This document shows, piece after piece, positions 8,024-34,969 of a stretch of DNA of 57,993 nucleotides. Below the pieces are notes generated by a model. It was not told where the DNA came from and did no database searches. It saw only the letters and a program-made list of their open reading frames with translations. Both the position numbers and the translations under genes were made by a program. Origin of the DNA: Olivibacter sitiensis DSM 17696. GTDB lineage: Bacteria; Bacteroidota; Bacteroidia; Sphingobacteriales; Sphingobacteriaceae. The stretch covers positions 1 to 57,993 of the forward strand of contig NZ_ATZA01000040.1 of NCBI RefSeq assembly GCF_000427965.1, written 5' to 3'. Within the stretch, counting starts at the first letter, position 1. The number at the start of each line of letters is the position of its first letter.

Positions 8024-8794
8024 ATGTTAAGTATCAAAAATTTGCACGCCTCGATAGATGGCAAAGAAATTTTAAAGGGATTGAGCCTGGACGTAAAAGC
8101 AGGAGAGGTACATGCGATTATGGGGCCTAATGGCTCTGGCAAGAGTACTTTGGCTTCCGTTTTGGCCGGTCGCGAGGATTATGAAGTCACCGAAGGTGAG
8201 GTGACATTGGACGGCGTAAACCTATTGGAAATGGCCCCAGAAGATAGGGCAAGAGAGGGAGTCTTCTTGGCTTTCCAATATCCCATAGAGATTCCTGGGG
8301 TATCCAATATCAACTTTCTGAAAACTGCGGTTAACGAAATTCGTGCTTACAAAGGATTACCCCCAATGGAGGCAAAGGAATTTTTGCAGCGTGTGAAAGA
8401 AAAGCAAAAACTAGTGGAGTTTGACGCCAAATTGGCCAACCGTTCCCTGAACGAAGGTTTTTCTGGAGGAGAAAAAAAGCGTAATGAGATATTCCAATTG
8501 GCCATGTTGGAACCAAAATTGTCTATCTTGGATGAGACAGACTCTGGTTTGGATATAGATGCCTTGCGTATCGTGGCCAATGGTGTGAATACACTTCGTT
8601 CGCAGAACAATGCCTTTGTGGTCATTACGCACTATCAAAGACTGCTGGACTATATTGTTCCAGATTATGTTCATGTACTGTACAAAGGTAAAATCGTACG
8701 CTCAGGAACAAAAGAATTGGCCCTAGAGCTGGAAGAGAAAGGCTACGATTGGTTGAAGCAAAGTGTCGACGCAGCCGAAAATGCTACGATATAA
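8024..8794 (+). CDS. sufC: Fe-S cluster assembly ATPase SufC
   Basis: Cytoplasmic ABC-type ATPase, 256 aa, that powers SufB-SufD. It has Walker A GPNGSGKST, the SufC-type signature FSGGEKKRNE and Walker B LSILDETDSGLDIDAL, with no membrane part. It lies 63 bp after sufB and 25 bp before sufD, on the same strand, so one transcript is likely. Confidence 0.97.
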   Translation: MLSIKNLHASIDGKEILKGLSLDVKAGEVHAIMGPNGSGKSTLASVLAGREDYEVTEGEVTLDGVNLLEMAPEDRAREGVFLAFQYPIEIPGVSNINFLKTAVNEIRAYKGLPPMEAKEFLQRVKEKQKLVEFDAKLANRSLNEGFSGGEKKRNEIFQLAMLEPKLSILDETDSGLDIDALRIVANGVNTLRSQNNAFVVITHYQRLLDYIVPDYVHVLYKGKIVRSGTKELALELEEKGYDWLKQSVDAAENATI

Positions 8795-8819
8795 AACGAC
8801 CTTTAGAATTTTTATTTAA

Positions 8820-10130: not shown

Positions 10131-10224
10131 GCATATTCAACAAATTTAAAGTTATGAAAATGTAAAAGAATCCATCCCAAGCGGTGGATTTTTTTATTTC
10201 TTCACTTATTTGGTTATTATAATT

Positions 10225-10232
10225 TATCTTTG
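10225..10232 (+). promoter_or_regulatory. Candidate internal -7 box before sufS
   Basis: TATCTTTG overlaps a TTG codon at 10230 that could otherwise open the sufS frame. If the box is used, transcription starts near 10238 and translation must begin at the GTG at 10254. Confidence 0.5.
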
Positions 10233-10253
10233 TTATATACAAAGCAAAAGAAA

Positions 10254-11486
10254 GTGAAAGTTTTGACACCATATGATATAGCGGCCGTGAGAGCCGATTT
10301 TCCTTTGTTAAGAACAACTGTCAATGGCAAGCCGTTGATTTATCTCGATAATGGGGCAACGACTCAAAAGCCCCGATTTGTCATCGATGCCATACAGCAA
10401 TACTATACGCTCCAAAACAGTAATATCCATAGGGGGGTGCACCATCTCAGCCAGTTGGCCACGGATGCCTATGAGGTAACCAGAAATAAGCTGAAAGATT
10501 TTATCCATGCCGAGCACGGACATGAAATTATCTTAACGGCAGGAACTACGCATAGCATCAACCTGGTATCTACCTGTTTTGGCAAGGCGTTTGTGAAGGA
10601 AGGGGATGAGGTAATCATTTCGGCCATGGAGCACCATAGCAACATTGTGCCCTGGCAGATGATGTGCGAAGAGCGGGGAGCCAAGTTGAAAGTGGTCCCC
10701 ATTGATGATGACGGCGTACTGGATATGGATGCCTATGCGCGTTTGCTCAATGATCGGGTAAAATTGGTCTCCATGACCTACGTATCCAATACGTTGGGAA
10801 CGATCAATCCCGTACAGCAGATTATTCAAATGGCACATGAAAACGGTAGTCCTGTACTGTTGGATGCGGCACAAGCCGTACAACATATGGCTATTGACGT
10901 GCAGGCACTTGATGTGGATTTCCTTGCTTTTTCCGGACACAAGATGTACGGACCAACAGGGGTGGGGGTGCTATATGGGAAAGAGAAGTGGCTCAATGCC
11001 ATGCCGCCCTATCAAGGTGGAGGCGATATGATAAAGGACGTGACCTTTGAAAAAACGACCTACAACGACCTGCCCTTCAAATTTGAGGCAGGTACTCCCA
11101 ATATCGAGGCTGGCATTTGCTTAGGAGCCTCTATAGATTATATCAATCAGATTGGATTGGACCATATCGCTGAGTACGAAGCCGAATTATTGCACTATGC
11201 CCTTGAGGCTCTTGCCGAAATAGAAGGCATTCGCTTTATTGGCAAGGCCAGGGAAAGGTCAAGTGTGATTTCGTTTTTGATAGAGGGTACGCATCCATAT
11301 GACGTAGGGGTAATATTGGATAAATTGGGGATTGCCGTGCGGACGGGACACCATTGTACGCAACCATTGATGGATCGATTCGGTATACCGGGCACAGTGA
11401 GGGCTTCCATTGCTATGTACAACACACAGGAAGACATAGATGGTTTGGTGGCTGGAGTGAAGCGTGCGGCCCGCATGTTATTATAA
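10254..11486 (+). CDS. sufS: Cysteine desulfurase SufS
   Basis: PLP enzyme that removes sulfur from cysteine for Fe-S assembly, about 410 aa. The PLP lysine lies in FSGHKMYGPTGVGVLYG and the catalytic Cys in VRTGHHCTQPLMDRF, the group II (SufS) context. The start is not certain: no ATG is available near the expected N terminus, so GTG 10254 (MKVLTPYDIAAVRADFPLL) is preferred over TTG 10230, which overlaps a promoter box. It is followed after 18 bp by its partner sufE. Confidence 0.94.
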   Translation: MKVLTPYDIAAVRADFPLLRTTVNGKPLIYLDNGATTQKPRFVIDAIQQYYTLQNSNIHRGVHHLSQLATDAYEVTRNKLKDFIHAEHGHEIILTAGTTHSINLVSTCFGKAFVKEGDEVIISAMEHHSNIVPWQMMCEERGAKLKVVPIDDDGVLDMDAYARLLNDRVKLVSMTYVSNTLGTINPVQQIIQMAHENGSPVLLDAAQAVQHMAIDVQALDVDFLAFSGHKMYGPTGVGVLYGKEKWLNAMPPYQGGGDMIKDVTFEKTTYNDLPFKFEAGTPNIEAGICLGASIDYINQIGLDHIAEYEAELLHYALEALAEIEGIRFIGKARERSSVISFLIEGTHPYDVGVILDKLGIAVRTGHHCTQPLMDRFGIPGTVRASIAMYNTQEDIDGLVAGVKRAARMLL

Positions 11487-11504
11487 TAATTTGTACCTTT
11501 AAAA

Positions 11505-11921
11505 ATGACGATAAACGAAATACAGGATGAACTGATAGCCGATTTTGCTTTCTTTGAAGACTGGATGGAAAAATACGAATACATTATCCAACTGGGCAAG
11601 GAACTGCCTTTGATAGAAGAAAGCAAAAAATCGGATGACTTACTTATAAAAGGCTGCCAATCTAGGGTGTGGTTGCTGGCAGAGGAAAAGGACGGAAGGA
11701 TATACTTCACCGCCGATAGCGATGCCATCATCACCAAGGGACTCGTAAGTCTAATGGTAAAGGTACTATCTGGCCAGTTGGCAGAAGACATTGCCACTGC
11801 CGATCTGTATTTCATAGATAAGATAGGATTGAAAGACCACTTATCGCCCACACGAGCCAATGGTCTATTGGCTATGGTAAAACAAATGCGACTCTTTGCT
11901 TTGGCTCTTCAAGCCAAATAA
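11505..11921 (+). CDS. sufE: Sulfur acceptor protein SufE
   Basis: SufE takes persulfide sulfur from SufS and passes it to SufB. 138 aa, standard length. The acceptor Cys sits in LLIKGCQSRVWL, and the N-terminal IQDELIADFAFFEDWMEKYEYIIQLGKELP is typical. It completes the sufBCDSE order. Confidence 0.95.
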   Translation: MTINEIQDELIADFAFFEDWMEKYEYIIQLGKELPLIEESKKSDDLLIKGCQSRVWLLAEEKDGRIYFTADSDAIITKGLVSLMVKVLSGQLAEDIATADLYFIDKIGLKDHLSPTRANGLLAMVKQMRLFALALQAK

Positions 11922-11947
11922 AAACAATACTAGATGATATAATCAAG

Positions 11948-13027
11948 ATGAAGCTATTTAAATGCACGCAATGTGAAAACCCTGTCTATTTTGAAAATAC
12001 AAGCTGCGACAGGTGTAAGTATCAATTGGGTTTTGAAGTAAATAGCATGTCACTTTTTGCCATCAAGACGGAGGCCGATGGCAGCTATTCATTGGTGAAG
12101 CACGATGACGTTCCAAATTCGGGCTATCGTTATTGTGCCAATCATCAATATCAGGTGTGCAATTGGCTCGTAGCAGAAGGCGCAAAAAGCGACTATTGTG
12201 TCGCTTGCAATCTAAACAGGACCATACCCGACCTTGCCGTTGACGATAATTTGCGCAAATGGAGCAAGATAGAGATTGCAAAACATAGGCTTATTTACGC
12301 ACTTCTGCGTTTCAACCTACCCGTAAACAGGAAAACAAGTGATGCTGTTCATGGCATCTTATTTGATTTTCTTGCTGATACGGAAGGCCAGCCACGTGTA
12401 CTCACAGGCCATGCGAATGGCCTGGTGACCTTGAATATAGCAGAGGCCGATGACATAGAACGAGAAATGATGCGCAAGCAGATGGATGAAATCTATCGTA
12501 CTTTGCTTGGGCATTTCCGCCACGAGATTGGCCATTACTATTGGGAGGTCTTTTTTCTCGACCACCCTGAAAGGCTTTCTCTTTTTCGTAAGATATTTGG
12601 TGATGAAAGAGCGGATTATGGCGAGTCACTTCAAAGGCATTATGAACAGGGAACACCTAAAGACTGGGAGGAGCACTATATCAGTGCCTATGCAGCGGCC
12701 CATCCATGGGAAGACTGGGCGGAAACATGGGCGCATTACCTGCATATGGTAGGAACGTTGGAAACGGCATATGCTTTTGGAGTAACAATAGATCCGCTTA
12801 TACATGCCGATAAAAGGGGAATGAGTACAAGGATAGACAAAGATCCTTACCTGGAAATGGACTTTGAAGAGATCATTGGAAAATGGCTGCCACTAACCTT
12901 TGCCATGAATTCCCTCAATCGAAGTATGGGCCTAAAAGATCCATATCCATTTATCATTACGCCAAGTGTATTGGGAAAACTTCAGTTTATCCATAACGCA
13001 ATACACCAACAATGGGCTAGTGTATAG
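11948..13027 (+). CDS. Putative zinc-binding metallopeptidase with N-terminal zinc ribbon (Peptidase_Mx type)
   Basis: 359 aa. Two Cys-rich modules come first (C6, C9, C20, C23, then C63, H66, C71, C84, C87), matching a zinc ribbon plus a second metal knuckle. A HEIGH motif follows (H192, E193, H196), with DWAETWAHYLHM further downstream as likely third-ligand region, as in the putative zinc-binding metallopeptidase family. No signal peptide is seen, so it should be cytoplasmic. It follows sufE by 26 bp and is probably co-transcribed, but no role in Fe-S assembly is known to me. Substrate unknown. Confidence 0.85.
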   Translation: MKLFKCTQCENPVYFENTSCDRCKYQLGFEVNSMSLFAIKTEADGSYSLVKHDDVPNSGYRYCANHQYQVCNWLVAEGAKSDYCVACNLNRTIPDLAVDDNLRKWSKIEIAKHRLIYALLRFNLPVNRKTSDAVHGILFDFLADTEGQPRVLTGHANGLVTLNIAEADDIEREMMRKQMDEIYRTLLGHFRHEIGHYYWEVFFLDHPERLSLFRKIFGDERADYGESLQRHYEQGTPKDWEEHYISAYAAAHPWEDWAETWAHYLHMVGTLETAYAFGVTIDPLIHADKRGMSTRIDKDPYLEMDFEEIIGKWLPLTFAMNSLNRSMGLKDPYPFIITPSVLGKLQFIHNAIHQQWASV

Positions 13028-13091
13028 TTGTGGATTATGAGTTGCGGGTCGGAACAAGCGGTTTGCTTTTTTTATTTTCATTTTTACTTTA

Positions 13092-13099
13092 TACTTTTG
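13092..13099 (+). promoter_or_regulatory. -7 box abutting the Lrp-type gene
   Basis: TACTTTTG ends 3 nt before the ATG at 13103, which would make the transcript leaderless. No -33 box at normal spacing, so this is weaker than the others. Confidence 0.4.
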
Positions 13100-13102
13100 A
13101 GC

Positions 13103-13573
13103 ATGGCCTTTGAACCTGATAAAATAGATCTTCAAATCCTGAAGCTACTGCAAGAGAACGGACGGATTACCAATCTCCAACTGTCTTCCAATATTGGACT
13201 TTCGCCAGCGCCCACATTAGAACGGGTACGTAAATTGGAGAATGCCGGCTATATCAAAAGTTACCATGCCTTGGTAGACGAGGAAAAGCTTGGAATAGGC
13301 ATTAAAACTTTTATACAAATCCAATTGGATTTTCATACGCACAATGCCATTCCAGAATTTGTGGAGGCCATCAGGGCGATACAAGAAGTGACGGAATGCC
13401 ATCACGTAACCGGGCCATGTGATTTTATCCTCAAGGCTTATGTGAAGGATATAAAGGGCTATGAAAAGCTCATCATGGAAAAGATCAGCAAGATACCCTA
13501 TGTGAAGACTTTCCAGACGATGATGATCATGTCTACTTCAAAAAAGGAGCCTATTGTGCCCATGGAGTATTAA
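13103..13573 (+). CDS. Lrp/AsnC family transcriptional regulator
   Basis: 156 aa. An N-terminal winged helix (DLQILKLLQENGRITNLQLSSNIGLSPAPTLERVRKLENAGYI) is followed by the RAM/AsnC_trans ligand-binding domain (HHVTGPCDFILKAYVKDIKGYEKLI). Members bind amino acids and regulate their metabolism or transport. The ligand cannot be read here. An open frame extends upstream to 13028, but that translation is low-complexity; ATG 13103 gives the family N terminus. Confidence 0.92.
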   Translation: MAFEPDKIDLQILKLLQENGRITNLQLSSNIGLSPAPTLERVRKLENAGYIKSYHALVDEEKLGIGIKTFIQIQLDFHTHNAIPEFVEAIRAIQEVTECHHVTGPCDFILKAYVKDIKGYEKLIMEKISKIPYVKTFQTMMIMSTSKKEPIVPMEY

Positions 13574-13588
13574 ATTGGCAATAAGTAC

Positions 13589-14260
13589 TCATACCTGCCA
13601 GTCTATTGGAGTCTTCCCTTTCGATATGAGGTAAGCATTGGCTTTGGAAAAGGGCTTGCTGCCGAAAAAGCCGTTGTGGGCTGAAAGTGGAGAGGGGTGA
13701 GCTGAGGTGATTACACAGTGTTTGCTCGTATCTATCAGCGCCATTTTTTTTCTGGCATAGGCCCCCCATAAAATGAAAACCAAACCCTCGCGGAGTTGGG
13801 ATAACTTCGTTATCGCTTCGTCCGTAAACTGCTCCCAACCCTTTTTTTGATGGGAACCTGCCTGGTGCGCTCTCACGGTAAGCGTGGCATTCAGCAAGAG
13901 TACGCCCTGATCTGCCCACTTGGTCAAATTGCCGTGACGTGGTATGGTGAATCCATCGATATCGTTACTCAATTCTTTGTACATGTTCTGTAGTGAGGGA
14001 GGAATGGCTATGCCCTCGGGGACCGAAAAAGATAGGCCATGTGCCTGTCCTACATTGTGGTAGGGGTCTTGGCCCAATATGACGACCTTTACCTTGTCAA
14101 AAGGTGTATGCTGGAAAGCATTAAATATTAGCTTATTAGGAGGGTAAATTTGATGATTGGCCTTTTCTTCCGTCAGAAAGGATTTAAGGGATTTCATGTA
14201 TGGCTTTTCAAACTCATCGGCGAGCACGTCGAGCCAGCTTTTTTCCAATGCAATACTCAT
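13589..14260 (-). CDS. ung: Uracil-DNA glycosylase
   Basis: Family 1 UDG, 223 aa, that excises uracil from DNA. The water-activating motif GQDPYHNVGQAHGLSFSV and the DNA-intercalation loop HPSPLSAHNGFFG are intact. The frame opens with TTG at 14266, but ATG 14260 (MSIALEKSW) is more likely because TATGTTTG (14264-14271) overlaps the TTG codon. It is convergent with the Lrp-type gene, with a 15-bp gap. Confidence 0.95.
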   Translation of the reverse strand: MSIALEKSWLDVLADEFEKPYMKSLKSFLTEEKANHQIYPPNKLIFNAFQHTPFDKVKVVILGQDPYHNVGQAHGLSFSVPEGIAIPPSLQNMYKELSNDIDGFTIPRHGNLTKWADQGVLLLNATLTVRAHQAGSHQKKGWEQFTDEAITKLSQLREGLVFILWGAYARKKMALIDTSKHCVITSAHPSPLSAHNGFFGSKPFSKANAYLISKGKTPIDWQV

Positions 14261-14263
14261 ACT

Positions 14264-14271
14264 CAAACATA
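14264..14271 (-). promoter_or_regulatory. -7 box abutting ung
   Basis: TATGTTTG on the minus strand ends 3 nt before the ATG at 14260, predicting a leaderless message. No clear -33 box. Confidence 0.45.
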
Positions 14272-14409
14272 GCTAAAATCGGTCTTAAAGTCATAACGCA
14301 ATTGAAAAAATTTGATTTGGCCACCCCGCAGTAATAATAAGCTTTACAATTGCTAATTCCATTAAATAAACAGATATTTGCAGTTTAATCTCAAATAAGC
14401 AAATTACAT

Positions 14410-25407: not shown

Positions 25408-25467
25408 GAATTATATGGTTTGTGAATATCATTTAAAGTAGGGAGTGGCTAGGAAATTTCAACTTAA

Positions 25468-25484
25468 CATAATATAAATTATAA
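25468..25484. repeat. Putative attL: 17-bp direct repeat
   Basis: CATAATATAAATTATAA, identical to 34953-34969. The core ATAAT-ATAA-ATTAT has 5-bp inverted arms around a 4-bp centre, as expected for a tyrosine-recombinase crossover site. It lies 26 bp before the first gene of the element. Confidence 0.7.
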
Positions 25485-25509: not shown

Positions 25510-26133
25510 ATGCGTTTCGTATGCGCATTTTTCGCCTTTTCCATTTGTACAATATTTTTTACTAAAGTTAGTGCGCAAGATACAAAAATCATTCTCAACA
25601 ACTATATCAAATTCCGTACTCGACAATTAGATACTTTGTACAATTATCTTGTACAATCCCGAAAATCCGACTGGCTCGCAAAAATCCCATCGCCCACATA
25701 TTCCACACGCACGGGTTTCGGGCTTTCGTTCAGCCTGCAGTCCATCGCCAGCTACCGCCAAACAAAGCAGCGCAACCAAATCGAGCTAGAGCGCCTAAAG
25801 TTCCAGATGCAATCAGAACTCGACAAAGAAATCCAACAGCTGGAAATCCAGATAGACCAACTATTTGCCGATGCAGACAAACTCAAAATCGCCATTAAAA
25901 ACTTCGAAACCTACGAAAACCAAATACACGACATCGAGCAAGGAAAATACCAAAACAACCAGTCCACGCTCAAGGAATGGCTCACGTACAAAAAATCTTA
26001 TGAAGAAAGAAAAAACAACCTACAGGCCGAACGCACCGCCATCATCAACAAATTATCGGCTATGGCCACAAAAACAAAAAGCCCCGAAGAGTTTCAGGGC
26101 TTAATTAAAATCTTTACAAACCTCACATTCTAA
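25510..26133 (+). CDS. Exported coiled-coil protein of unknown function
   Basis: 207 aa. A signal peptide (MRFVCAFFAFSICTIFFTKVSA|QD) is followed by a short region containing PSPTYSTRTGFGLSFSLQS and then a long coiled coil (about residues 85-185) rich in Gln, Glu and Lys. The overall look resembles the periplasmic helical hairpins of export systems, but no family is recognised. It is the first gene inside attL; its first ~50 codons are AT-rich and the rest shifts to the C-rich codon use of the element. The next gene starts 4 bp after its stop, so the two are co-transcribed. Confidence 0.75.
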   Translation: MRFVCAFFAFSICTIFFTKVSAQDTKIILNNYIKFRTRQLDTLYNYLVQSRKSDWLAKIPSPTYSTRTGFGLSFSLQSIASYRQTKQRNQIELERLKFQMQSELDKEIQQLEIQIDQLFADADKLKIAIKNFETYENQIHDIEQGKYQNNQSTLKEWLTYKKSYEERKNNLQAERTAIINKLSAMATKTKSPEEFQGLIKIFTNLTF

Positions 26134-26137
26134 AGAC

Positions 26138-28264
26138 ATGGACAAAAGTACAGTTTTAAATTCAGTCTCCGAAAGAGAAATATTTTTCAAATTTCTGCAA
26201 ATCACACATTTGCCAAAGGGAAACATTTCCAGCCCCTTTTCATCCGACAGCAATCCATCCTTCAGGCTCTACCAAAACAACACATTCAAGTGTTTCAGCA
26301 CGGGAAAGCAAGGAGACGTTTGGCAGTTCGTGGCAGACCTAAAGGGAATAGACTGCAAGACCGAATTCCACAAGGTACTCGAAGCTATAGCACAGGAATT
26401 TGGAATCAGTACCCACAAGCATTTCAGCTACACGGCCAAAGCCTGGACCAACGAACATTACGCCTACTGGATGCAAGGAAACTGGAACGTCACAGAGGAC
26501 GTCCTGGAATATTTCAACGTTAAGCCGTTGGACAAATTCGAGTACTGGAATAGCAAAAAACAAGAAATCACCAAGATAAAGCTGTTCAAGAACGTACTCG
26601 GATTTATCTACGAGGTCAACGGAAACGCAGAAATTTACATTCCAAACCAGCCCGAAAAGAAAGCAAAGAAGTTTTTCTACAACAACCTCTCCCCTGCCGA
26701 TATTTTCGGCCTGCACATGCTGCTGGCAGACAAGCACGAGTTTATCATCATTGCAGCGGGCAAAAAAGATTGCCTTATATTGAACGCAAACGGCTTTCCA
26801 GCCGTTTCCTTCCGTTCAGAAAACCACTTCGTCACAGAAGCGCAAATAGCGCAATTGCGACAAAAGACAGACCATCTAATTATCTGCTACGACAACGACG
26901 CCCCTGGCAAGGAAGCCCAATCCAAGATTGCAGCAGAGTACAACCTATTGCAAATCCATCTTGCGGGCAATCAGATTAACGACATCGCCGATTATTTCCA
27001 GGCCCACACCAAGGAAAATTTCAGGGAACTCGTAGAAGAATCCCTCGCAGGGGCGCAAGATTTTGCGCCCGAAACGCAAACCATCTTCCACGTCACCGAA
27101 TCGTACCTATCAAAACGCTACAAGTTCCGTTACAACAATATCGCACTCGCTATCGAATATTGCCGCAAAGGCTCCACCGCATGGCAGCCGCTCAACGAAA
27201 ATTCGCTTTTCATCGAGCTGCAAAAGAACAACGTCAAGGTCTCCATCAACAACCTGTTGGCCATTCTCAAATCCGATTTCGTACCCGAGTACAATCCCAT
27301 TCAGGACTACTTTGCGCACCTGCCCAAATGGGACGGCATCGAGATTATAGAAAAACTCGCCTACTACGTACAGGCCAAAGACCCCATCACCTTTGCCTAC
27401 CATTTCAAGAAATGGCTCGTGCGCACCGTCAAGTGTGCCCTCATTCCAGACTATTTCAATAAGCAAGCTTTCGTACTCGTTCACAAGGGACAGAACAGCG
27501 GCAAGTCCACGTTTTGCCGCTTTCTTTGCCCGCCCACCCTCGCAGACTACATAGCAGAGGACATCAGCAACGACAAGGACGCACGTGTACTCTTATGCAA
27601 GAATTTCCTAATAAACCTCGACGAGCTGGCCGTGCTTTCTCGGAAAGAAATCAACTCCCTCAAATCCTATTTCTCCAAGACAACCGTAAACGAACGCTTG
27701 CCATACGACAGGAAAAACACCATCCTGCCAAGGGTATGCAGCTTCATCGGCAGCACCAATATGGACACATTTCTAGCGGACGAAACGGGAAGCGTCCGCT
27801 GGCTATGCTTCGAGATAACGGGCATCAATTGGGCCTACAAGACCGACATCAACATAGACAAGGTTTGGGCGCAAGCCCTGCACCTTGCGCAAAACGGATT
27901 TGATTGCGAAATGTCCCTTTCCGACATCGCAGACAACGAACGCCGCAACCAGCAATACCAAATACTCTCAACAGAGCAGGAACTCATAAACAAGTATTTC
28001 AAGCCCACTATCGAGACCAATCCGCAAGCCGATTTCCTTACCAGTACAGAGATTATGCTGCACCTGCAACCGCTGGGCATCAACCTCAACAAGATACAGA
28101 TAGGCAAGGCACTCTCCGCCCTGGGCTACGAGCGCATCAAGCACAAGGAAAAACAAGTCTACGGCTATTTCTGCATCGTCTCCGAGCTCTACCCCATATC
28201 AGGCAGCACGGGCGTATCGCATACGCCCCAAAAGTCCCCATTGTCACACCCTCAAATCTTTTAG
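26138..28264 (+). CDS. Toprim/VirE-type primase-helicase of the mobile element
   Basis: 708 aa. Residues about 20-90 look like a DnaG-type zinc-finger fold that has lost its ligands (SSPFSSDSNPSFRLYQNNTFKCFSTGKQGDVWQFVADLKG). Residues about 198-285 are Toprim-like: IIAAGKKD in place of the usual EGxxD, then CYDNDAPG. Residues about 385-600 are a VirE-family superfamily-3-like helicase: Walker A GQNSGKST (451-458), Walker B FLINLDEL (490-497) and GSVRW with the likely Arg finger. Such proteins start replication of Bacteroidota mobile elements. The catalytic Glu of Toprim is Ala here, so primase activity is doubtful. Confidence 0.88.
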   Translation: MDKSTVLNSVSEREIFFKFLQITHLPKGNISSPFSSDSNPSFRLYQNNTFKCFSTGKQGDVWQFVADLKGIDCKTEFHKVLEAIAQEFGISTHKHFSYTAKAWTNEHYAYWMQGNWNVTEDVLEYFNVKPLDKFEYWNSKKQEITKIKLFKNVLGFIYEVNGNAEIYIPNQPEKKAKKFFYNNLSPADIFGLHMLLADKHEFIIIAAGKKDCLILNANGFPAVSFRSENHFVTEAQIAQLRQKTDHLIICYDNDAPGKEAQSKIAAEYNLLQIHLAGNQINDIADYFQAHTKENFRELVEESLAGAQDFAPETQTIFHVTESYLSKRYKFRYNNIALAIEYCRKGSTAWQPLNENSLFIELQKNNVKVSINNLLAILKSDFVPEYNPIQDYFAHLPKWDGIEIIEKLAYYVQAKDPITFAYHFKKWLVRTVKCALIPDYFNKQAFVLVHKGQNSGKSTFCRFLCPPTLADYIAEDISNDKDARVLLCKNFLINLDELAVLSRKEINSLKSYFSKTTVNERLPYDRKNTILPRVCSFIGSTNMDTFLADETGSVRWLCFEITGINWAYKTDINIDKVWAQALHLAQNGFDCEMSLSDIADNERRNQQYQILSTEQELINKYFKPTIETNPQADFLTSTEIMLHLQPLGINLNKIQIGKALSALGYERIKHKEKQVYGYFCIVSELYPISGSTGVSHTPQKSPLSHPQIF

Positions 28265-28511: not shown

Positions 28512-28732
28512 AAATCAAAATCAACATGTACATCACCAGCACATTGCCATACGATATCATCCGCTACAGGCGCATAGAAAAGATAATAGACCAGCATGGC
28601 CGTGAAGTCACCGAAATAGACGTAGGGGCGACCCTTGCGGTCGACCATGGCGCACAATGCCAGCCCATCGTCATCATTGCAGACGGCCTATATCTTACCC
28701 TGTCACAGTGCCACGTTTTGCCCGTTTGGTAG
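28508..28732 (+). CDS. Small hypothetical protein (74 aa) containing an embedded palindromic repeat
   Basis: Its ATG overlaps the preceding stop. MKIKINMYITSTLPYDIIRYRRIEKIIDQHGREVTEIDVG looks like a coherent small protein. Codons 40-46 (GATLAVD) are encoded by one copy of the GGGCG...CGACC palindrome family (28625-28646), and another copy begins exactly at its stop codon. No family recognised. Confidence 0.55.
   Translation: MKIKINMYITSTLPYDIIRYRRIEKIIDQHGREVTEIDVGATLAVDHGAQCQPIVIIADGLYLTLSQCHVLPVW
28625..28646. repeat. Element palindrome, copy inside a coding region
   Basis: A GGGGCGACC-CTTGC-GGTCGACC type hairpin, the same family as the intergenic copies, here read in frame within the 74-aa gene. 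Confidence 0.6.
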
Positions 28733-28753
28733 GGCCGCACCTTGAGTGCGCCC
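28732..28753. repeat. Element palindrome copy
   Basis: GGGCCGCACC...AGTGCGCCCC hairpin starting at the stop codon of the preceding gene. Confidence 0.6.
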
Positions 28754-28790
28754 CTATCCCGTTTTCATTTGAACAGAAAAATAAAAAACA

Positions 28791-29068
28791 AGTTACCTAT
28801 CTTACCTAAAGCCACTTAACAGGTTGATAATAAGCTAGGTAACTTTAGGTAAGATGAACCAAATCAAGTTACCTATCTTACCTAAAACCGCCAAAATGGC
28901 TTCGCAACAAATTGATTTTCAATTTGTTAACCTTAGGTAAGATAACCTTATTTAGAATCATTCTTAGGTAACTTAGGTAAGTTCAGGTAACTTTAGGTAA
29001 GATGAATTTTTAATTTTAATTATTTGATTATGAACACTTTAAAACGCTTAGGTAACTTAGGTAAGATG
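28791..29068. repeat. Iteron-like array (TTAGGTAA repeats), possible replication origin
   Basis: Six exact copies of AGGTAAGAT occur: reverse at 28799 and 28874, forward near 28847, 28934, 28996 and 29058. Six copies of GGTAAC are usually placed about one helical turn away on the same strand, giving double units at 28791-28809 and 28866-28885 (reverse) and 28836-28856, 28963-28980, 28984-29004 and 29047-29068 (forward). A 10-bp perfect hairpin AACAAATTGA/TCAATTTGTT sits in the middle (28906-28928). The array lies between the replication-protein block and the recombinase gene. Function as an origin or operator is inferred. Confidence 0.75.
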
Positions 29069-29099
29069 ATTTCGAAGTTTTTGACTTTTTACAGCGTAC

Positions 29100-29121
29100 G
29101 GGCGAACCCTTGCGGACGCCC
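29100..29121. repeat. Element palindrome copy
   Basis: GGGCGAACC...GGACGCCC hairpin directly after the iteron array. Confidence 0.6.
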
Positions 29122-29176
29122 AATCTTGCCATATGCCCTTAAAACAAACTTTATGATTTTAAAATGACAAAAGTAC

Positions 29177-29228
29177 GGGCGCACCTACGTGTGCGCCCAT
29201 CAGGTAAGGGCGCATCCCGCATGCGCCC
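29177..29228. repeat. Paired element palindromes, upstream copy
   Basis: Two hairpins, GGGCGCACC...TGTGCGCCC (29177-29198) and GGGCGCATC...GCATGCGCCC (29208-29228), separated by 9 bp. The same two-hairpin composite recurs at 33431-33480. Confidence 0.7.
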
Positions 29229-29244
29229 ATAAAAGCACAAGATT

Positions 29245-30747
29245 ATGCCCGAAATTCACTACCTCTCCAAATCTGAAGCCGATTTGCTCCTCCGTTCAGC
29301 AAAGAACTACAAGCAAAAATGCCTCATACTGCTCATGCTCGATGCAGGCCTTCGTGTATCAGAAGCATGCAGCCTACGGCTGCAAAACTTCGACTTCAAG
29401 CACAATATCATCAATGTCCACTCACTCAAGAAAAGAGACAAAACAACCATACGCACCGTACCCATGTCCGATAGGTTGTACCAGGCCATAGCAAACTACC
29501 TCCCCACGCTCAAGACCACGCAGCCCGATGCCTTTCTATTCCCATCGCATTCCGCCGATGGACACATCGGCCGCAAACGGGTGTGGCGCATACTCGCAAC
29601 CAAAAAAATTGCCCTTGGCATTCCCCAGCTGCACCCACACGCCTTGCGGCATACATTCGCCACCCACCACCTCAACGAGGGAACCAAGTTGGAAGAAATC
29701 AAGACCATGCTAGGCCATTCCAGTTACGATACCACCTTGATATACGCATCCATCCCTACCGACAAGCTAAAAGAGCGTGTCAATCTCGTTACCAGCGGAA
29801 AAAGAAACTGGCTGCAAAGATTACTCGACAAAATCCGAACCCCAGCCCGCAAAATCATCAACCTAGATTTTGCGCGTGAAAGCGCCACTTTCGGACGCAA
29901 TGCCGAAATCCGCCAACTCAACGAAAACGTATCCAAGAACATCAACACCATCGTTATTGCACCCACGGGGCTGGGCAAATCACATCTCCTAAAACAAATA
30001 CAGACCCAAAAGAAAATGCTCAAGATAGATGACACCGAAAACTTCAAGGGCTCACTGGCCAACATCCTTTTGCTCCTCCACGAGAACGACAAAAACGCCG
30101 TCCTAGCGCTCATTTGGAAAGAATTCAGCAAAGACCAGATAGCAACCAAAGTCCAAAGGGAAACAGCCCTCAACCTTTGCGAACTCATAAAACAAGCCGT
30201 AGAGCCAAAGGAATACGTCTTAATGATTGATGACATCACACGCATCACCCCCAGCGGCAAAAAAGTCCTCGACAGGCTCAAAGATACATTCGTCATCGTC
30301 ACCTCCGCCCGAGAAATCAAGGCCAGCGATACCGCCTTTCTTTGGAACTTCGAGGTCATGAAGCTAAAACCCCTGGACAGGGAAAACGCCATGCGCCTCA
30401 TACACCACCACGCCACGGGCATGGAAGTCGAAAACCCCGAACTGTTCCGAAACCATATCTATGACCAGACTGGCGGAAACCCTCGTGCCATAACAGAAAT
30501 GATAGAGCGGTACAGGGCAGAGCCGTTCCTCACCAACGAAGCCGTGCTAAAGCACCGCCACGTAGGTGCATTGCAGGAAATAGACATGTCATTTGCCCTC
30601 GTATTGCTCATAGCCATCATGACCGCCATGCGCTACCTCGCACGGGACCTGGAAAACCCAAACTTGCGCCTCATCGGTGCCATCGGTATGATACTATTGA
30701 TTATATCACGGCCAATATTCCGTGGCCTCAAACGTAAAAACCTGTAG
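29245..30747 (+). CDS. Tyrosine recombinase catalytic domain fused to a P-loop ATPase and two C-terminal membrane helices
   Basis: 500 aa. Residues 1-180 are a tyrosine recombinase catalytic domain: R37 (GLRVSEA), K62/K63 in the beta-hairpin region, H132-x-x-R135 (HALRHTFATHHL), H158 (MLGHSSYDTT) and Y167 (LIYAS). The usual N-terminal core-binding domain is missing. Residues 210-430 form an AAA/STAND-like ATPase: Walker A APTGLGKS (239-246), Walker B YVLMIDD (324-330), a sensor-like FVIVTSAREI, and GGNPRAI near 411-416. Two hydrophobic helices follow (about 449-465 and 474-490) with a basic tail. I know of no characterised recombinase of this layout. It should catalyse insertion or excision at the 17-bp repeats, possibly controlled by ATP and membrane attachment. 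Confidence 0.85.
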   Translation: MPEIHYLSKSEADLLLRSAKNYKQKCLILLMLDAGLRVSEACSLRLQNFDFKHNIINVHSLKKRDKTTIRTVPMSDRLYQAIANYLPTLKTTQPDAFLFPSHSADGHIGRKRVWRILATKKIALGIPQLHPHALRHTFATHHLNEGTKLEEIKTMLGHSSYDTTLIYASIPTDKLKERVNLVTSGKRNWLQRLLDKIRTPARKIINLDFARESATFGRNAEIRQLNENVSKNINTIVIAPTGLGKSHLLKQIQTQKKMLKIDDTENFKGSLANILLLLHENDKNAVLALIWKEFSKDQIATKVQRETALNLCELIKQAVEPKEYVLMIDDITRITPSGKKVLDRLKDTFVIVTSAREIKASDTAFLWNFEVMKLKPLDRENAMRLIHHHATGMEVENPELFRNHIYDQTGGNPRAITEMIERYRAEPFLTNEAVLKHRHVGALQEIDMSFALVLLIAIMTAMRYLARDLENPNLRLIGAIGMILLIISRPIFRGLKRKNL

Positions 30748-30832
30748 GGGCGCATCTTGCATGCGCCCGTCCTGTAAGGGCTTGCATGCGCCCATCAATC
30801 GCATACGTACGGGCGCGCCCTTGCGGTCGCCC
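30747..30832. repeat. Cluster of three element palindromes
   Basis: Copies at 30747-30768, 30778-30793 and 30811-30832 fill the gap between the recombinase stop codon and the next ATG at 30852. The first begins with the last base of the TAG stop. Confidence 0.65.
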
Positions 30833-30851
30833 GCTTAAAAACAAAATCAAC

Positions 30852-32141
30852 ATGACAACACCAAATCACCTCGCTGGCGGACTAGTTTTCACAGGCATTT
30901 GCGCCTCGCTTTGGAATGTTAATGTTTTCCAAGCACCCGCCTATCTAGTCATTACGGCCGTAGCTTCGCTACTGCCAGACATCGACCACACACGCTCCAT
31001 CATCGGCAAGCTCTGCTATCCCATCGCTCGCATGATAGCCAAGAAATACAGCCATCGCACCATCACGCACTCGCTACTGTTTTTGCTCGCCTCCACGCTC
31101 GCCTTTCACCTTGCAAACCGCTATTTCATCCATCTGCCATCAGCCACCCTTATTTTCTTTTTTTCTGTCCTTTCCCATTTCATACTCGACATGGTGACAA
31201 TCCAGGGCATCCCATTTTTCTATCCGTTCATCAAAAATCCTTGCGTCATCCCAGCCAAGCCCGAGTACCGTTTCAAGGCAACCGACATCAAGGCAGAGGG
31301 AATCGCCTTTTTCGTTTTCACCCTCATGCTCTTCACCTTTCAGGACTTGTTCGCAAACGGCTTTTGGATGCAGCTAAACAACGCTTTCAGCGACCTCAAG
31401 CACGTAGCCGCAGAGTTCAGGAACAACCAAAATTTTATCCAACTCGAATATGATTATAGCCACTTTCAGGAGCGCAACCAAGGCACCGCCATTGTCGTAA
31501 CCGCCAGCGACAAAAACGCCGTCCTTTATCAGGACGGCACTTTTATCAGCCTCGCCACGGACGTGGATGGCATCACCATTCACGACTTCAAGGTCAGCAA
31601 AACCCAAATCCCTAAAGAAACGCAAATCGTCAATTTCGAAAATATTAAAATCGATAGTTTAAACTCCATCTTGAATGGCCATTTCATCACCAATGCCGTC
31701 ATTTTCGCCAGCGAAAACGCCACGGCCATCATAGACGGCAAGCCCTCCGCAAACACCTATTTCAGTTTTCAGAACCAATATGGCATCATCTTTCAGGAAA
31801 CCGACAAACAGGCCACAAGGCCGAACCAGCTCGAAATTTTGCGACTACAGCGGGAAATAGAAATAGAGGAAAACCAAATACAACAGGAAAATAAAAAATA
31901 TGAGAACATGAAAACAGAACTCCAAAACCTGCAACAAAACCTCAAAAACGCAAAAAATCCCTACCAAGAAGACCACTTGCGCAACCAAATCATCAACCTC
32001 GCAAAACAGCTAGACAGCTACAGACCAAAATCAAACACCCAATTGCTCAAGCAAAAAGAAAAACTCGCCCAGCTCTCAAAGCCAACGGTACCAAACCCGA
32101 CACACTACACAGGCCAAATCACTTTTTTGATAATCCAATAA
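30852..32141 (+). CDS. DUF457/YdjM-like membrane-bound metal-dependent hydrolase with long extra C-terminal coiled-coil domain
   Basis: 429 aa. Residues 1-170 match the LexA-binding/DUF457 membrane hydrolase family: H6 (PNHLAGG), LPDIDH (41-46), HRTITHS (68-74) and SHFILD (108-113), within about four hydrophobic helices. After the last helix, about 230 residues not found in the usual ~200-aa members contain a beta-rich part (TAIVVTASDKNAVLYQDGTF) and a Gln/Glu/Asn-rich coiled coil (about 335-415). An upstream in-frame start at 30786 would translate a palindrome copy, so ATG 30852 is chosen. Role unknown. Confidence 0.82.
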   Translation: MTTPNHLAGGLVFTGICASLWNVNVFQAPAYLVITAVASLLPDIDHTRSIIGKLCYPIARMIAKKYSHRTITHSLLFLLASTLAFHLANRYFIHLPSATLIFFFSVLSHFILDMVTIQGIPFFYPFIKNPCVIPAKPEYRFKATDIKAEGIAFFVFTLMLFTFQDLFANGFWMQLNNAFSDLKHVAAEFRNNQNFIQLEYDYSHFQERNQGTAIVVTASDKNAVLYQDGTFISLATDVDGITIHDFKVSKTQIPKETQIVNFENIKIDSLNSILNGHFITNAVIFASENATAIIDGKPSANTYFSFQNQYGIIFQETDKQATRPNQLEILRLQREIEIEENQIQQENKKYENMKTELQNLQQNLKNAKNPYQEDHLRNQIINLAKQLDSYRPKSNTQLLKQKEKLAQLSKPTVPNPTHYTGQITFLIIQ

Positions 32142-32145
32142 GTAC

Positions 32146-32166
32146 GGGCGACACTTGCGGTCGCCC
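32146..32166. repeat. Element palindrome copy
   Basis: GGGCGACAC...GGTCGCCC hairpin between the DUF457-like gene and the lipoprotein gene. Confidence 0.6.
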
Positions 32167-32182
32167 ATTTATAAGCACCATC

Positions 32183-32512
32183 ATGAAAAAAACAATCATC
32201 CCCATCACCGCCATGCTCTTTCTCGCTTGCGAGAAAAGCAACTTCGACCCCGAAAAACTACACGACTTCCAAGTACACACAAACGTCTGTCATTTAGATA
32301 TTTCCATCTACCAACCCCCCAACGTCCCAAACGTCCCTGCCACGTTTATCACACGCCGCCGATTCGATTGCGACCAAGAAAAATTCGCCCTGCTAAGGCT
32401 CAAAGCGGGTAATTACAAAATAGTGGCCACAACGCCCGACGGCAAGGAAATCTCAACCGATTTTGAGGTCAAACCACGTGGGTACGACAGCATTTATCTT
32501 GATTTTTTCTGA
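32183..32512 (+). CDS. Small lipoprotein of unknown function
   Basis: 109 aa. The N terminus MKKTIIPITAMLFLAC is a lipoprotein signal with lipobox LFLA|C16. The mature part is about 94 aa and beta-rich (LKAGNYKIVATTPDGKEISTDFEVKPRGYDSIYLDFF), ending like a small carboxypeptidase-regulatory or Ig-like fold. It is element cargo and, with the two upstream exported proteins, points to an envelope role. No family recognised. Confidence 0.7.
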   Translation: MKKTIIPITAMLFLACEKSNFDPEKLHDFQVHTNVCHLDISIYQPPNVPNVPATFITRRRFDCDQEKFALLRLKAGNYKIVATTPDGKEISTDFEVKPRGYDSIYLDFF

Positions 32513-32543
32513 TTTGGGCGCACCCCTACGGGTCGGGCTGATG

Positions 32544-32619
32544 GCCATGTGCCGCCAATAGCATTTTTGCCCCTTTCCCCGCTTCGCAAAAAATGCCATT
32601 GGCGGCACTCGCACATGGC
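32544..32619. repeat. 76-bp imperfect inverted repeat
   Basis: The arms pair GCCATGTG with CACATGGC, CCGCCAAT with ATTGGCGG and GCATTTTTGC with GCAAAAAATGC, giving a long interrupted hairpin. No T-run follows, so a simple terminator is unlikely. Confidence 0.65.
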
Positions 32620-32850
32620 AAAGCCTGTCATCCATTCCGCTACGCTCCATTTCTGCAAGGCCTTGCCATCGTCCCAACGCTCAAATCGCCCTCACTTCAT
32701 ACCCCCACAAAGCAGGGGCAATCAGTTCGGGCGGTGTAGCTATTGGCGTGGGCCATTGGCGTACTTCGCACCCTGACGGGATGCGTAACCTGTCAAACGG
32801 CCTTTCAACCGTGCTAAGCAGCTATGAACGCGAACCACATCCCATCCTTA

Positions 32851-32959
32851 AACATAATGTGCTATTATAAAACTGGTCTGCAACTATCAACGTCGGTGCT
32901 CCTACCCTATCCTGCAACTATCAACGCATCCCCGCCAGTTGTTATAATCACATTATGTT
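32851..32959. repeat. 109-bp inverted repeat enclosing two copies of CTGCAACTATCAACG
   Basis: The outer arms AACATAATGTG and CACATTATGTT pair exactly, continued by TTATAA and ACTGG/CCAGT pairs. Inside, CTGCAACTATCAACG occurs at 32878-32892 and 32912-32926. The right end reads GTTAAGT, which fits the attC core-site pattern GTTRRRY, but the left end does not complement it perfectly. Confidence 0.65.
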
Positions 32960-33056
32960 AAGTTGGGCTTGGCATCTATTCGGCCTCCGCTCCCGAAAGG
33001 CCATCGCTCGGGCTTATGCAGGCCTTGAGCCATCCCAGCGGCTGGCTTCGCCCATT

Positions 33057-33222
33057 TGTGCGCATCTCCCTCCGGTCGGTCAGGCGCTGGCCTGCGGCAG
33101 CTCGGCATTTTGCTCCCGCTTGCCGCTGTCACGGTCTTTGCCTTGCTCCGCTACGCTCCGCCGCAAAAGACCCCGCCAGCAACCCGCCGCACCGTGTGCG
33201 CATCTCCCTCCGGTCGGTCAGG
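33057..33222 (+). repeat. Two 28-bp direct repeats 138 bp apart
   Basis: Identical 28-bp blocks at 33057-33084 and 33195-33222 (containing CATCTCCCTCCGGTCGGTCA), each followed by a shared GGCCTGCGGCAGC. A partial third copy, GTCGGTCAGGGCG, is near 33424. Confidence 0.7.
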
Positions 33223-33430
33223 GCGCACGGCCTGCGGCAGCACGGCTTTTTGATAAGCTTTCCCCACGCTCGTTTGCGGCTTGCGTCGCTCCGCGCACGC
33301 AGGTGCAGCGGGGCTTTCAGAATTATCACGTTTGCCTTTAGGGTGTCGCTTCCCAGCGGCAAGCGCCAGTCGGTCACCGCTGCCACAACCACCAACGGCG
33401 GTGACGGTCGTCTGCTGCCACAGTCGGTCA

Positions 33431-33480
33431 GGGCGTACCTATGTGTGCGCCCACTGTAAGGGCGCATCTCGCATGCGCCC
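33431..33480. repeat. Paired element palindromes, downstream copy
   Basis: Hairpins GGGCGTACC...TGTGCGCCC (33431-33452) and GGGCGCATC...GCATGCGCCC (33460-33480). Nearly the same composite as 29177-29228. Confidence 0.7.
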
Positions 33481-33573
33481 AAAAAAAACAAAAAAACACT
33501 TGCAAAAATCCAAAATTATTAGTATTTTTAATAAAATAAACAATTGAAAATCAGTATTTTAAAACTTAAAATC

Positions 33574-34088: not shown

Positions 34089-34126
34089 CCGTTCGGAATT
34101 TTCGGAATTCCGAAAATTCCGAACGG
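34089..34126. repeat. Perfect 38-bp palindrome
   Basis: The left half CCGTTCGGAATTTTCGGAA is followed directly by its exact reverse complement, with no spacer and a GAATTC centre. It lies between the 55-aa gene and the toxin gene. Confidence 0.85.
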
Positions 34127-34309: not shown

Positions 34310-34594
34310 TTACGGGAAGTTCCTGTAAATATCCTTACGGTGCAAAAACCTTGCTAAAGCAATTATGCGTTCTCCCTCAATTTCTTCCACAAAAAATCCC
34401 AGTCTCCAATCGCCTTGCTTATACCTGTACGTGCCCGCATGTCCAACCATATCCGTAATCTTTGGGTGAGCACGCAATTGCTCCTCGCTTTCGACAGCTA
34501 GCAATTCATTTTCGATTCCTTGTGCTATTTTCTTAAAGTTGGGCGTTAGCTTCTTTATGTCCTTTACGTATGAACTGTAATAGATTACCTGCAT
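34310..34594 (-). CDS. RelE/ParE-family toxin of a type II toxin-antitoxin system
   Basis: 94 aa. The RelE-like core is visible in TYRYKQGDWRLGFFVEEIEGERIIALARFLHRKDIYRNFP, with the GDWRLGF strand and the C-terminal R-F-x-HRKDIYR that carries the basic catalytic residues. RelE toxins cleave mRNA on ribosomes. The gene starts 3 bp after the antitoxin stop. Confidence 0.88.
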   Translation of the reverse strand: MQVIYYSSYVKDIKKLTPNFKKIAQGIENELLAVESEEQLRAHPKITDMVGHAGTYRYKQGDWRLGFFVEEIEGERIIALARFLHRKDIYRNFP

Positions 34595-34597
34595 TGG

Positions 34598-34885
34598 TTA
34601 GTTGTAGAGGTTTTTCTCTTTGTCCCTAGCTATCAACGTGCTTTCCCTCTTGGAAGTTTGCATCAGTTCAAAAAAAGCTTTGTCCTCAATATGCTCGACG
34701 TTGATTATATCAAAAAGCTTTTCCATTTCTTCCACGGTAAATCCAGCATTCTTTCTTTTGTGATAGAATGTCATTCTAGGCATGTCCAGTTTTTGAGCCA
34801 AGAACTCAACCTTGTAACCCGATTGCTTGATGAAGAAATTTATATTTTTCAAAAGCTTTTTATAATCTTCAATAATGTACAACAT
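34598..34885 (-). CDS. Antitoxin partner of the RelE-like toxin (helix-turn-helix type)
   Basis: 95 aa. The helical central part (YKVEFLAQKLDMPRMTFYHKRKNAGFTVEEMEKLFDII) reads as a helix-turn-helix DNA-binding domain, and the charged C-terminal tail (ELMQTSKRESTLIARDKEKNLYN) would wrap the toxin. The order antitoxin then toxin with a 3-bp gap is typical. TATATTTG on the minus strand (34926-34933) predicts a start near 34920. The putative attR lies 68 bp upstream, so the pair occupies the right edge of the element, where it could stabilise inheritance. Confidence 0.8.
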   Translation of the reverse strand: MLYIIEDYKKLLKNINFFIKQSGYKVEFLAQKLDMPRMTFYHKRKNAGFTVEEMEKLFDIINVEHIEDKAFFELMQTSKRESTLIARDKEKNLYN

Positions 34886-34933: not shown

Positions 34934-34952
34934 CGATATGTTTTTGATTTTT

Positions 34953-34969
34953 CATAATATAAATTATAA
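34953..34969. repeat. Putative attR: 17-bp direct repeat
   Basis: CATAATATAAATTATAA, identical to 25468-25484. It marks the right limit of the element; kdsA's stop codon lies 39 bp further on. Confidence 0.7.

Follow-up and report, generated by a model that had tools for sequence, protein, structure and literature searches.

A Xer-like tyrosine recombinase fused to a predicted membrane ATPase in a dif-bracketed element, and its candidate envelope partners across phyla

Introduction

What could be gained by joining a site-specific recombinase covalently to an ATPase and to the membrane is the question raised by a gene of Olivibacter sitiensis DSM 17696. The window, meaning the whole stretch of DNA analyzed, comprises 57,993 nt of contig NZ_ATZA01000040.1, and the gene, here termed component B, lies at 29245..30747 on the forward strand, starts with ATG and encodes 500 residues. 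The original prediction, made from the letters of the DNA, had described a tyrosine recombinase without a core-binding domain, followed by an ATPase and two hydrophobic helices, and had proposed that recombination could be gated by ATP or tethered to the membrane, so that excision would be coupled to a cell-envelope signal. The analysis presented here establishes that the fusion recurs with its catalytic residues conserved, that it lies in an element bracketed by dif sites, and that B is linked across phyla to a YdjM-type membrane protein (component C). Together with a candidate outer membrane protein of the OEP/TolC type (component A), these proteins could form an envelope-spanning module which handles the DNA of the element.

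Results

Domain composition and conservation of component B

Component B is well supported as a predicted combination, in one protein, of a Xer-like recombinase catalytic domain, a STAND/AAA-type ATPase and two membrane helices. The catalytic domain (residues 7–169; 29263..29751, forward strand) matches Pfam Phage_integrase with an expectation value (E) of 1.1e-34 and includes the codon of Y167 (29743-29745, forward strand). It opens the open reading frame (ORF) directly, as had been predicted, no core-binding (SAM-like) domain being matched in a Pfam search up to E 1. The nearest recombinase models are XerA (6.9e-39) and XerD, both under their curated cut-offs, and archaeal Xer recombinases are the top sequence matches among solved structures.

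The ATPase domain (residues 217–418; 29893..30498, forward strand; Walker A at residues 239–246) is of the NB-ARC/ATPase_2 type and is kept in unfused homologues. Over residues 216–418 the Pfam cut-off of NB-ARC was passed (E 6.1e-8; 32.7 bits versus a cut-off of 23.5), while the matches to ATPase_2 (1.5e-7; 31.9 bits) and AAA_16 (3.9e-4) stayed slightly under and under their cut-offs, respectively. By sequence, the second half of the protein thus reads as an ATPase, in agreement with the original prediction, and its Walker motifs are conserved. The two hydrophobic helices were likewise recovered by a hydropathy scan, at residues 440–458 and 474–492 (30562..30720, forward strand), in a C-terminal region that aligns in the unfused homologues; they take the place of the sensor repeats typical of STAND proteins, no repeat family having been matched in the C-terminus. 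Structure prediction with three sequences gave low-confidence models of B and C. Foldseek searches with the model of B (mean predicted local distance difference test score (pLDDT) of 58) returned XerA/XerD together with CED-4/NLR, RuvB and RFC ATPases, which backs the domain assignment weakly.

Eleven fusions could be aligned, namely those of the window, L001, L002, L011, L012, L013, L014, L018, L057, L058 (truncated) and the N-terminal part of the Thiospirochaeta protein. Residues R37, K62, H132, R135, H158 and Y167 are kept in all eleven, as is GK(S/T) of Walker A; Asp329 of Walker B is kept in 10 of 11.

Recurrence of the fusion and spread of its unfused relatives

The survey for the same fusion found it at ten loci besides the window: five Bacteroidota plasmids, one spirochaete plasmid and four dif-bracketed loci. 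The plasmids are pA5BP1 of Flavobacterium (51.5% identity over 99%), two of Haliscomenobacter, one each of Flammeovirga and Spirosoma, and that of Thiospirochaeta, where the fusion spans the start of the record. The other copies belong to a contig of a Flavobacteriaceae metagenome-assembled genome (L001), to Riemerella columbina (L002; 53% identity) and to two genomes of the host's own family (L057 and L058). Since the fusion recurs at these loci, chance, a frameshift and a misassembly of two genes, the last two of which the original prediction had named as possible undoing, are excluded.

The fusion or an unfused relative was present in 4 of 395 genomes of a phylum sample (fused in the own genome, unfused in three others), and a profile of the fusions' ATPase matched 3 of 251 family genomes, which are the same 3 out of 400 order genomes. 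An unfused ATPase with membrane helices occurs on plasmids of Methylobacter, Nitrosococcus, Allochromatium, Thermus, cyanobacteria, Desulfocapsa and a fusobacterium. Plasmid records with B numbered 48, fusions included, and 43 with a cyanobacterial query; in raw PLSDB shares, 47 of the former and 41 of the latter are typed non-mobilizable.

The dif bracket

Flanking att repeats, which the original prediction had proposed to look for around homologues of the fusion, are present and are dif sites. The left boundary is the intact chromosomal dif (TATAATTTATATTATGTTAA; 25464..25483, reverse strand; 0 mismatches), the sole intact copy in the genome, and the right boundary is a degenerate dif in the same orientation (34949..34968, reverse strand; 2 mismatches), at a distance of 9,485 bp that gives an element of about 9.5 kb. 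Across the whole 5.05-Mb genome only these two sites were found within two mismatches, both at the ends of the element, and in six related genomes searched there is exactly one site each within one mismatch of the intact dif pattern. The chance expectation of the 16-base dif core at one mismatch is 0.00 in the window and 0.0–0.1 in the other four loci (20 shuffles each). An empty site is preserved in a genome of the same genus (G002), with kdsA, dif, a small gene and sir2 in uninterrupted succession; the order in the window is kdsA, dif', element, dif, small gene and sir2. GC skew adds little, turning negative at about 25 kb, partly through the strongly skewed element itself, and positive again at 48–56 kb.

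All five non-plasmid fusion loci (window, L001, L002, L057 and L058) are dif-bracketed, with elements of 5.6–9.9 kb. The arms of the sites are named here by likeness to the XerC and XerD arms of the E. coli site. The inner XerC arm and the centre are common to the dif copies compared across the five loci, and the XerD arm of the second copy differs in four of the five. More of that arm is kept in the second dif of L001, in which one central base and the outer XerC arm differ. By its dif bracket, the element belongs to the integrative mobile elements exploiting Xer (IMEX), and either the host Xer recombinases or its own Xer-like domain could act in its integration. On the six fusion plasmids no dif-like site within 3 mismatches was found in the stretches scanned (best 4 mismatches), these being the whole of L011, nearly the whole of L014, and parts of larger plasmids for L012, L013, L017/L046 and L018; a looser palindrome search gave scattered, unconvincing sites.

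The L058 element (8655-14295) is a decayed one, its ATPase gene being cut before the membrane helices and component C being gone, with the replication and A genes left.

Component C, a nearly constant partner

Downstream of B, at 30852..32141 on the forward strand, component C is encoded, a YdjM-type membrane protein (Pfam YdjM, 1.7e-27) with a predicted beta domain and a predicted, adaptor-like helical hairpin. The YdjM motifs H7, P43, D44, D46, HRT(x)THS, H110 and D114 (alignment numbering) are invariant in 9 of 9 rows. Twenty-four elements were gathered through their match to B (20 clustered ones plus L057, L058, L060 and L061) and were searched for each part with six-frame profiles. C was found in 23 of them, the exception being L058, where B is truncated. 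The named fusion plasmids have a YdjM 'metal-dependent hydrolase' on the same record, mostly adjoining the fusion; in Thiospirochaeta an insertion sequence and other genes separate the two. B and C are linked across phyla.

One Haliscomenobacter strain carries the gene pair on two plasmids (L012 and L018), between which the DNA identity is 94% for the fusion and 91% for YdjM. Elsewhere the compared stretches share only two short matches, and the gene pair seems to move as a unit.

That the C-terminal part of C is adaptor-like is supported by its predicted topology, its partners and sub-threshold matches in its relatives. The low-confidence model (pLDDT 52) consists of a beta domain, a helical hairpin (blocks of pLDDT 74–85) and a returning strand, and in a Foldseek search of the window protein chains of two EmrAB-TolC entries and MacA ranked 2–4, at E 0.06–0.11, which is not significant. 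Under the respective cut-offs, C of Thermus matches DevB-type adaptors (1.3e-4), and in Synechocystis the HlyD model TIGR01843 is matched (1.2e-5) by a distinct gene that lies two positions past C. A match of a Thermus C to Zn_dep_PLPC (1e-4), also under cut-off, is not used as evidence of activity.

Component A, an OEP/TolC-like candidate

In each of the five dif elements the gene of component A stands immediately inward of the intact dif. In the window (25510..26133, forward strand) it encodes a putatively secreted hairpin protein of 207 residues with an N-terminal hydrophobic stretch. The window protein matches Pfam OEP at E 0.026 only; it is homologous to the A proteins of the dif elements L058 (phmmer, 1.4e-36) and L002 (profile), which pass the OEP cut-off (3.3e-6 and 3.3e-5). 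An OEP/TolC-like nature of A is supported through these relatives, the window protein remaining a candidate.

Candidates for A were identified in 20 of the 24 elements. The A profile gave sixteen, of which 15 had themselves entered the profile as rows and one, L002, was hit independently (3.5e-37); L060 (8.3e-8) and L061 (2e-4) came from a profile of the L044 and L045 proteins; the Nostoc candidate (L049) was taken by annotation and OEP match, and that of L048 as its homologue. The OEP cut-off is passed by 5 of the 20 (L002, L044, L047, L049 and L058), E is at or below 1e-3 in seven (also L011 and L051), and weak matches are found in the window, as given above, in L057 (0.045) and in L060 (0.22). 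'TolC family protein' is the depositors' label in Thermus pPS18 and Nostoc pNOS7524.01. In phmmer comparisons the A proteins of Bacteroidota, of the spirochaete, of gammaproteobacteria and of the Desulfocapsa/fusobacterium pair fall into separate groups, so that a single family throughout is not implied. Two genes lying upstream of the ATPase, 2122-2787 in Nostoc L049 and 6844-7863 in Synechococcus L053, were considered as A and left out of the count, having no OEP match.

Other features of the element

The remaining genes of the element concern its maintenance. A replication protein of the primase-helicase type (26138..28264, forward strand) combines a CHC2 zinc finger, a Toprim domain and a VapE-like helicase (Pfam VapE 1e-33, Zn_ribbon_DnaG 8.3e-8, Toprim_2 2.7e-6). 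Between it and the fusion lies an array of nine exact copies of TTAGGTAA (28802..29064), a probable replication origin; the repeat occurs 11 times in the window, nine of them in the array, versus 1.74 expected in the whole window. In an uncontrolled comparison, iteron octamers recur between the replication gene and the fusion in L001, L002 and L058 and not in L057. A RelE/ParE-like toxin (34310..34594, reverse strand; PHROG RelE-like toxin, 5.7e-7) adjoins a putative helix-turn-helix (HTH) antitoxin (34598..34885, reverse strand) with a homologue in L002, and HTH–RelE-like pairs were noted by eye in L057 and L058. With its own primase-helicase, iterons, toxin-antitoxin pair and dif bracket, the element resembles a small replicon capable of integrating at dif. 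It is plasmid-like and apparently inserted at the chromosomal dif.

About ten G+C-rich imperfect palindromes of 24–31 bases, resembling GGGCGCACCTTGCGGTCGCCC, are scattered over window positions 28622-33486, mostly between genes; two of them, within two mismatches of the searched pattern, are the sole such copies in the genome. Near the toxin gene there is a perfect 19-base inverted repeat without a spacer (34089-34126).

A phage or phage-satellite origin was considered and rejected. No relative was seen in viral contigs by pattern scans, none of 414 matching phage records covers 80% of the query, and the unfused ATPase part has no phage match among 50,697 records. A known defence system was rejected as well, the module proteins matching PADLOC weakly (best 3.3e-5, mad8, with the Methylobacter ATPase). 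In the same resource the replication protein matches a DnaG-like DRT model at 7.1e-9 via its zinc-finger part.

DNA enzymes and other neighbours of component B

On cyanobacterial plasmids a VirD4/HerA-like ATPase is encoded after C, on the same strand and 1.0–5.7 kb downstream of B, in 28 of 28 rows, these being the best 28 of 134 matching records and including several near-identical plasmids. Among NCBIfam models this ATPase comes closest to CedD, a DNA-translocating ATPase (1.1e-12, under cut-off), and the Synechocystis copy passes the Pfam cut-offs of TrwB_AAD_bind and DUF87. An apparent operon of ATPase, YdjM, VirD4/HerA-like ATPase and adaptor-like gene was observed in L048, L049 and L053, with a TolC-like gene next in L048 and L049; these plasmids, among them pSYSX of Synechocystis PCC 6803, are typed non-mobilizable.

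Two genomes of the host's phylum (L044, 8477-12281; L045, 9373-13187) hold an unfused ATPase that has a short RadA-like gene on one side and a large serine recombinase on the other; the same clusters also contain a YdjM protein and an OEP-like protein. One further genome of the phylum has two clusters, on different contigs (L060, 1822-9367; L061, 9505-16927), that consist of C, an A-like gene and an unfused B; read in frame, both ATPases are genuine, unfused and provided with two membrane helices. The Desulfocapsa genes of the A candidate, B and C follow one for a tyrosine recombinase that is encoded separately. Secreted-family nuclease genes stand in 9 of the first 20 neighbourhoods, all except that of L002 by annotation: the staphylococcal-nuclease type in L002, L047, L048, L050, L051 and L053, and the DNA/RNA non-specific type in L013, L015 and L046. 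Those of L002, L013 and L046 start, as judged by eye, with hydrophobic signal-like stretches. A scan of the ORFs of the window's element found no VirB4, canonical relaxase or coupling protein and recognized no gene of a type IV secretion system (T4SS).

Discussion

The interpretation that we propose, and to which we would give an even chance, is that of a recombinase (or relaxase) tethered to an envelope-spanning complex of A, B and C, where it would handle the DNA of the element at the membrane, probably for transfer. B would be the membrane-anchored nucleoside triphosphatase (NTPase) of a conserved envelope module, residing in the inner membrane; C, ending in its adaptor-like beta/hairpin part, would reach into the periplasm, and A, which resembles half a TolC/OEP protein, would sit at the outer membrane. 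The recombinase domain could bind and cleave a site of the element via Y167, dif-like when integrated and some other cognate site on plasmids, while the ATPase of B would assemble and drive the complex and its two helices would hold the DNA-enzyme complex there. The DNA would then undergo processing and probably either cross the envelope or be released there. Physical assembly of A, B and C, use of ATP, and processing or transport of DNA are inferred. A bolder form of the proposal, which we put forward tentatively as possible and on the unlikely side, is a DNA-transfer machine of a new class that has no relation to type IV secretion, in which a relaxase-like tyrosine recombinase, either fused to a membrane STAND/AAA ATPase or cooperating with one, would feed plasmid DNA into a TolC-type channel with a YdjM-adaptor protein.

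The minimal elements have few genes (replication, A, B, C and toxin-antitoxin) and yet are found at dif in different genera, so some transfer route must exist. The lack of a core-binding domain is shared with tyrosine recombinase (TR)-like relaxases, which makes a relaxase role possible. As a side observation, PMC7901474 reports an enrichment for dif in the outer membrane vesicles of Dinoroseobacter shibae, and a link to the transfer of dif elements is possible.

Relative to the original prediction, the membrane tethering and the joining of an ATPase to the recombinase are upheld by sequence and by their conservation in the fusions. Coupling of excision to an envelope signal gained no result in its favour, and the same fusion is carried by plasmids without a dif-like site in the stretches scanned. 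The ATPase is accompanied by TolC-like, adaptor-like and YdjM proteins, and in cyanobacteria also by a VirD4/HerA-like one; such partners point to an envelope-spanning machine rather than to a sensor.

Several observations weigh against the proposed complex. The linkage of B and C was counted in elements for which B itself had served as bait, the structure models of B and C are poor, and in a second look by VIA the hairpin of C matched many unrelated hairpins at equal or higher Z. By six-frame profiles no A was detected in Haliscomenobacter L012 and L018, Flammeovirga L013 and Synechococcus L053, and 10 of the 20 A candidates have no OEP match in Pfam. No VirD4/HerA-like gene was seen in the elements from Bacteroidota. 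Of the 43 cyanobacterial B records, 15 have no row for it among the best 28, and one cyanobacterial row for this gene (Gloeothece, 25% cover) comes without a B row. The L060 and L061 stretches have neither a RadA-like gene nor a large serine recombinase of the L044/L045 kind, and the B genes of Methylobacter, Nitrosococcus and Allochromatium have no annotated recombinase beside them. Plasmids commonly carry nuclease, ParA and toxin genes, the non-mobilizable shares are raw ones, and the element may be mobilized by other means. Finally, the literature on the relaxase TcpM describes residues usually needed by tyrosine recombinases as dispensable there; B, in contrast, keeps the full set, which favours recombination at least as much as a relaxase role.

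The main rival explanation is a membrane-tethered, self-contained Xer system, in which the fusion would replace XerCD/FtsK, and dimer resolution, or integration and excision at dif or a plasmid site, would take place only at the membrane and be driven by its own ATPase, with A and C serving a separate envelope function. The nearness of the recombinase domain to XerA/XerD models and structures with all catalytic residues kept, the position of 5 of 5 non-plasmid copies between dif sites, and the description of FtsK, in the literature, as a membrane DNA translocase working with XerCD all speak for such a system. We nevertheless regard it as rather unlikely: the best site on the six fusion plasmids has 4 mismatches (some were partly scanned, and a divergent site would escape), unfused pairs of ATPase and C occur without an annotated adjacent recombinase, and the host genome already encodes Xer-like recombinases of its own. 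ATPases of the NB-ARC/STAND type are not known as DNA translocases.

The second rival is a plasmid-borne apparatus for secretion, efflux or exclusion of proteins or small molecules, similar to type I secretion with its TolC, adaptor and NTPase, to which the recombinase would be attached as a resolvase for co-expression and without a role in the machine. TolC/OEP- and HlyD-like partners, an ATPase that is unfused in several phyla, and nearby nucleases that could be cargo would suit it. The nucleases of L002, L013 and L046, however, have signal-like N-termini and may not need the machine, no ABC transporter was found among the main ORFs scanned in the window's element, DNA-handling enzymes stand beside B or are fused to it in separate lineages, and all 11 fusions aligned have an intact catalytic set in their recombinase; we consider this rival unlikely. 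That an ordinary integrase gene became joined to an ATPase gene by accident, without joint function, appears very improbable. Tyrosine recombinases are modular, and the rarity of the fusion in the family and order genomes would agree with an accident; against it, the active residues are all kept across Bacteroidota plasmids, a spirochaete plasmid and dif-integrated elements, and in a tree of recombinases the fusions form one group (10 rows versus 7 others, support 88/90, which is not decisive).

The spread of plasmids that have no known mobility genes still awaits explanation. It becomes testable with a three-part envelope module that accompanies genes for replication and DNA enzymes, both on plasmids of this kind from several phyla and in minimal dif elements. 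If the module is a transfer machine, plasmids of cyanobacteria, Thermus, gammaproteobacteria, Bacteroidota, a spirochaete, Desulfocapsa and a fusobacterium that are typed non-mobilizable would carry an unrecognized way to move. Even without DNA transport, a recombinase covalently joined to a membrane ATPase would newly tie DNA rearrangement to the envelope, for which the nearest parallel we know of is XerCD with FtsK. No description of the fusion or of the module was found among the open-access papers listed in literature searches, which is not proof of absence.

Comparison with known systems

IMEX examples are the gonococcal genomic island (GGI), LME-1 and the TLC phage. PMC5357621 and PMC9765430 state that insertion at dif leaves one intact and one modified dif, as for GGI and LME-1, and describe a divergent XerD arm for GGI; the window's element likewise has one intact and one modified dif. 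It differs in encoding its own Xer-like recombinase fused to a predicted membrane ATPase, and whereas GGI carries a T4SS used for DNA translocation, according to PMC12857230, the window's element has no recognized T4SS gene and the five dif elements measure only 5.6–9.9 kb. With XerC, XerD and XerA, and with FtsK, component B shares the catalytic domain and residues and the pairing with a membrane ATPase; unlike them, it has no core-binding domain, and its ATPase is NB-ARC/ATPase_2-like rather than FtsK-like and is covalently fused.

TR-like relaxases (MobK, TcpM and MpsA; MOBM) are described in PMC8152469 as having extra parts instead of the core-binding and arm-binding domains. B resembles this description in a catalytic domain without a core-binding domain and with extra parts instead, and differs in that no cognate origin of transfer (oriT), coupling protein or T4SS is known for it. 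The tripartite TolC systems (type I secretion, EmrAB and MacAB) have their counterpart, here at the level of genes, in a candidate OEP/TolC-like protein, an adaptor-like hairpin protein and a membrane ATPase; the ATPase of B is, however, STAND/AAA-like with two helices and not an ABC transporter, the adaptor-like part of C is fused to a YdjM domain, and B carries a recombinase. Homologues of the DNA pumps VirD4, HerA and CedD are encoded beside B and C in cyanobacterial plasmids, but none was seen in the window's element, and the Synechococcus copy is under the cut-off of all named NCBIfam models. With STAND/NB-ARC proteins, B has the Walker A and B motifs and an NB-ARC-like domain in common, and it differs in the absence of C-terminal sensor repeats. 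The fusion protein and its envelope module fit no family whose defining features could be tested.

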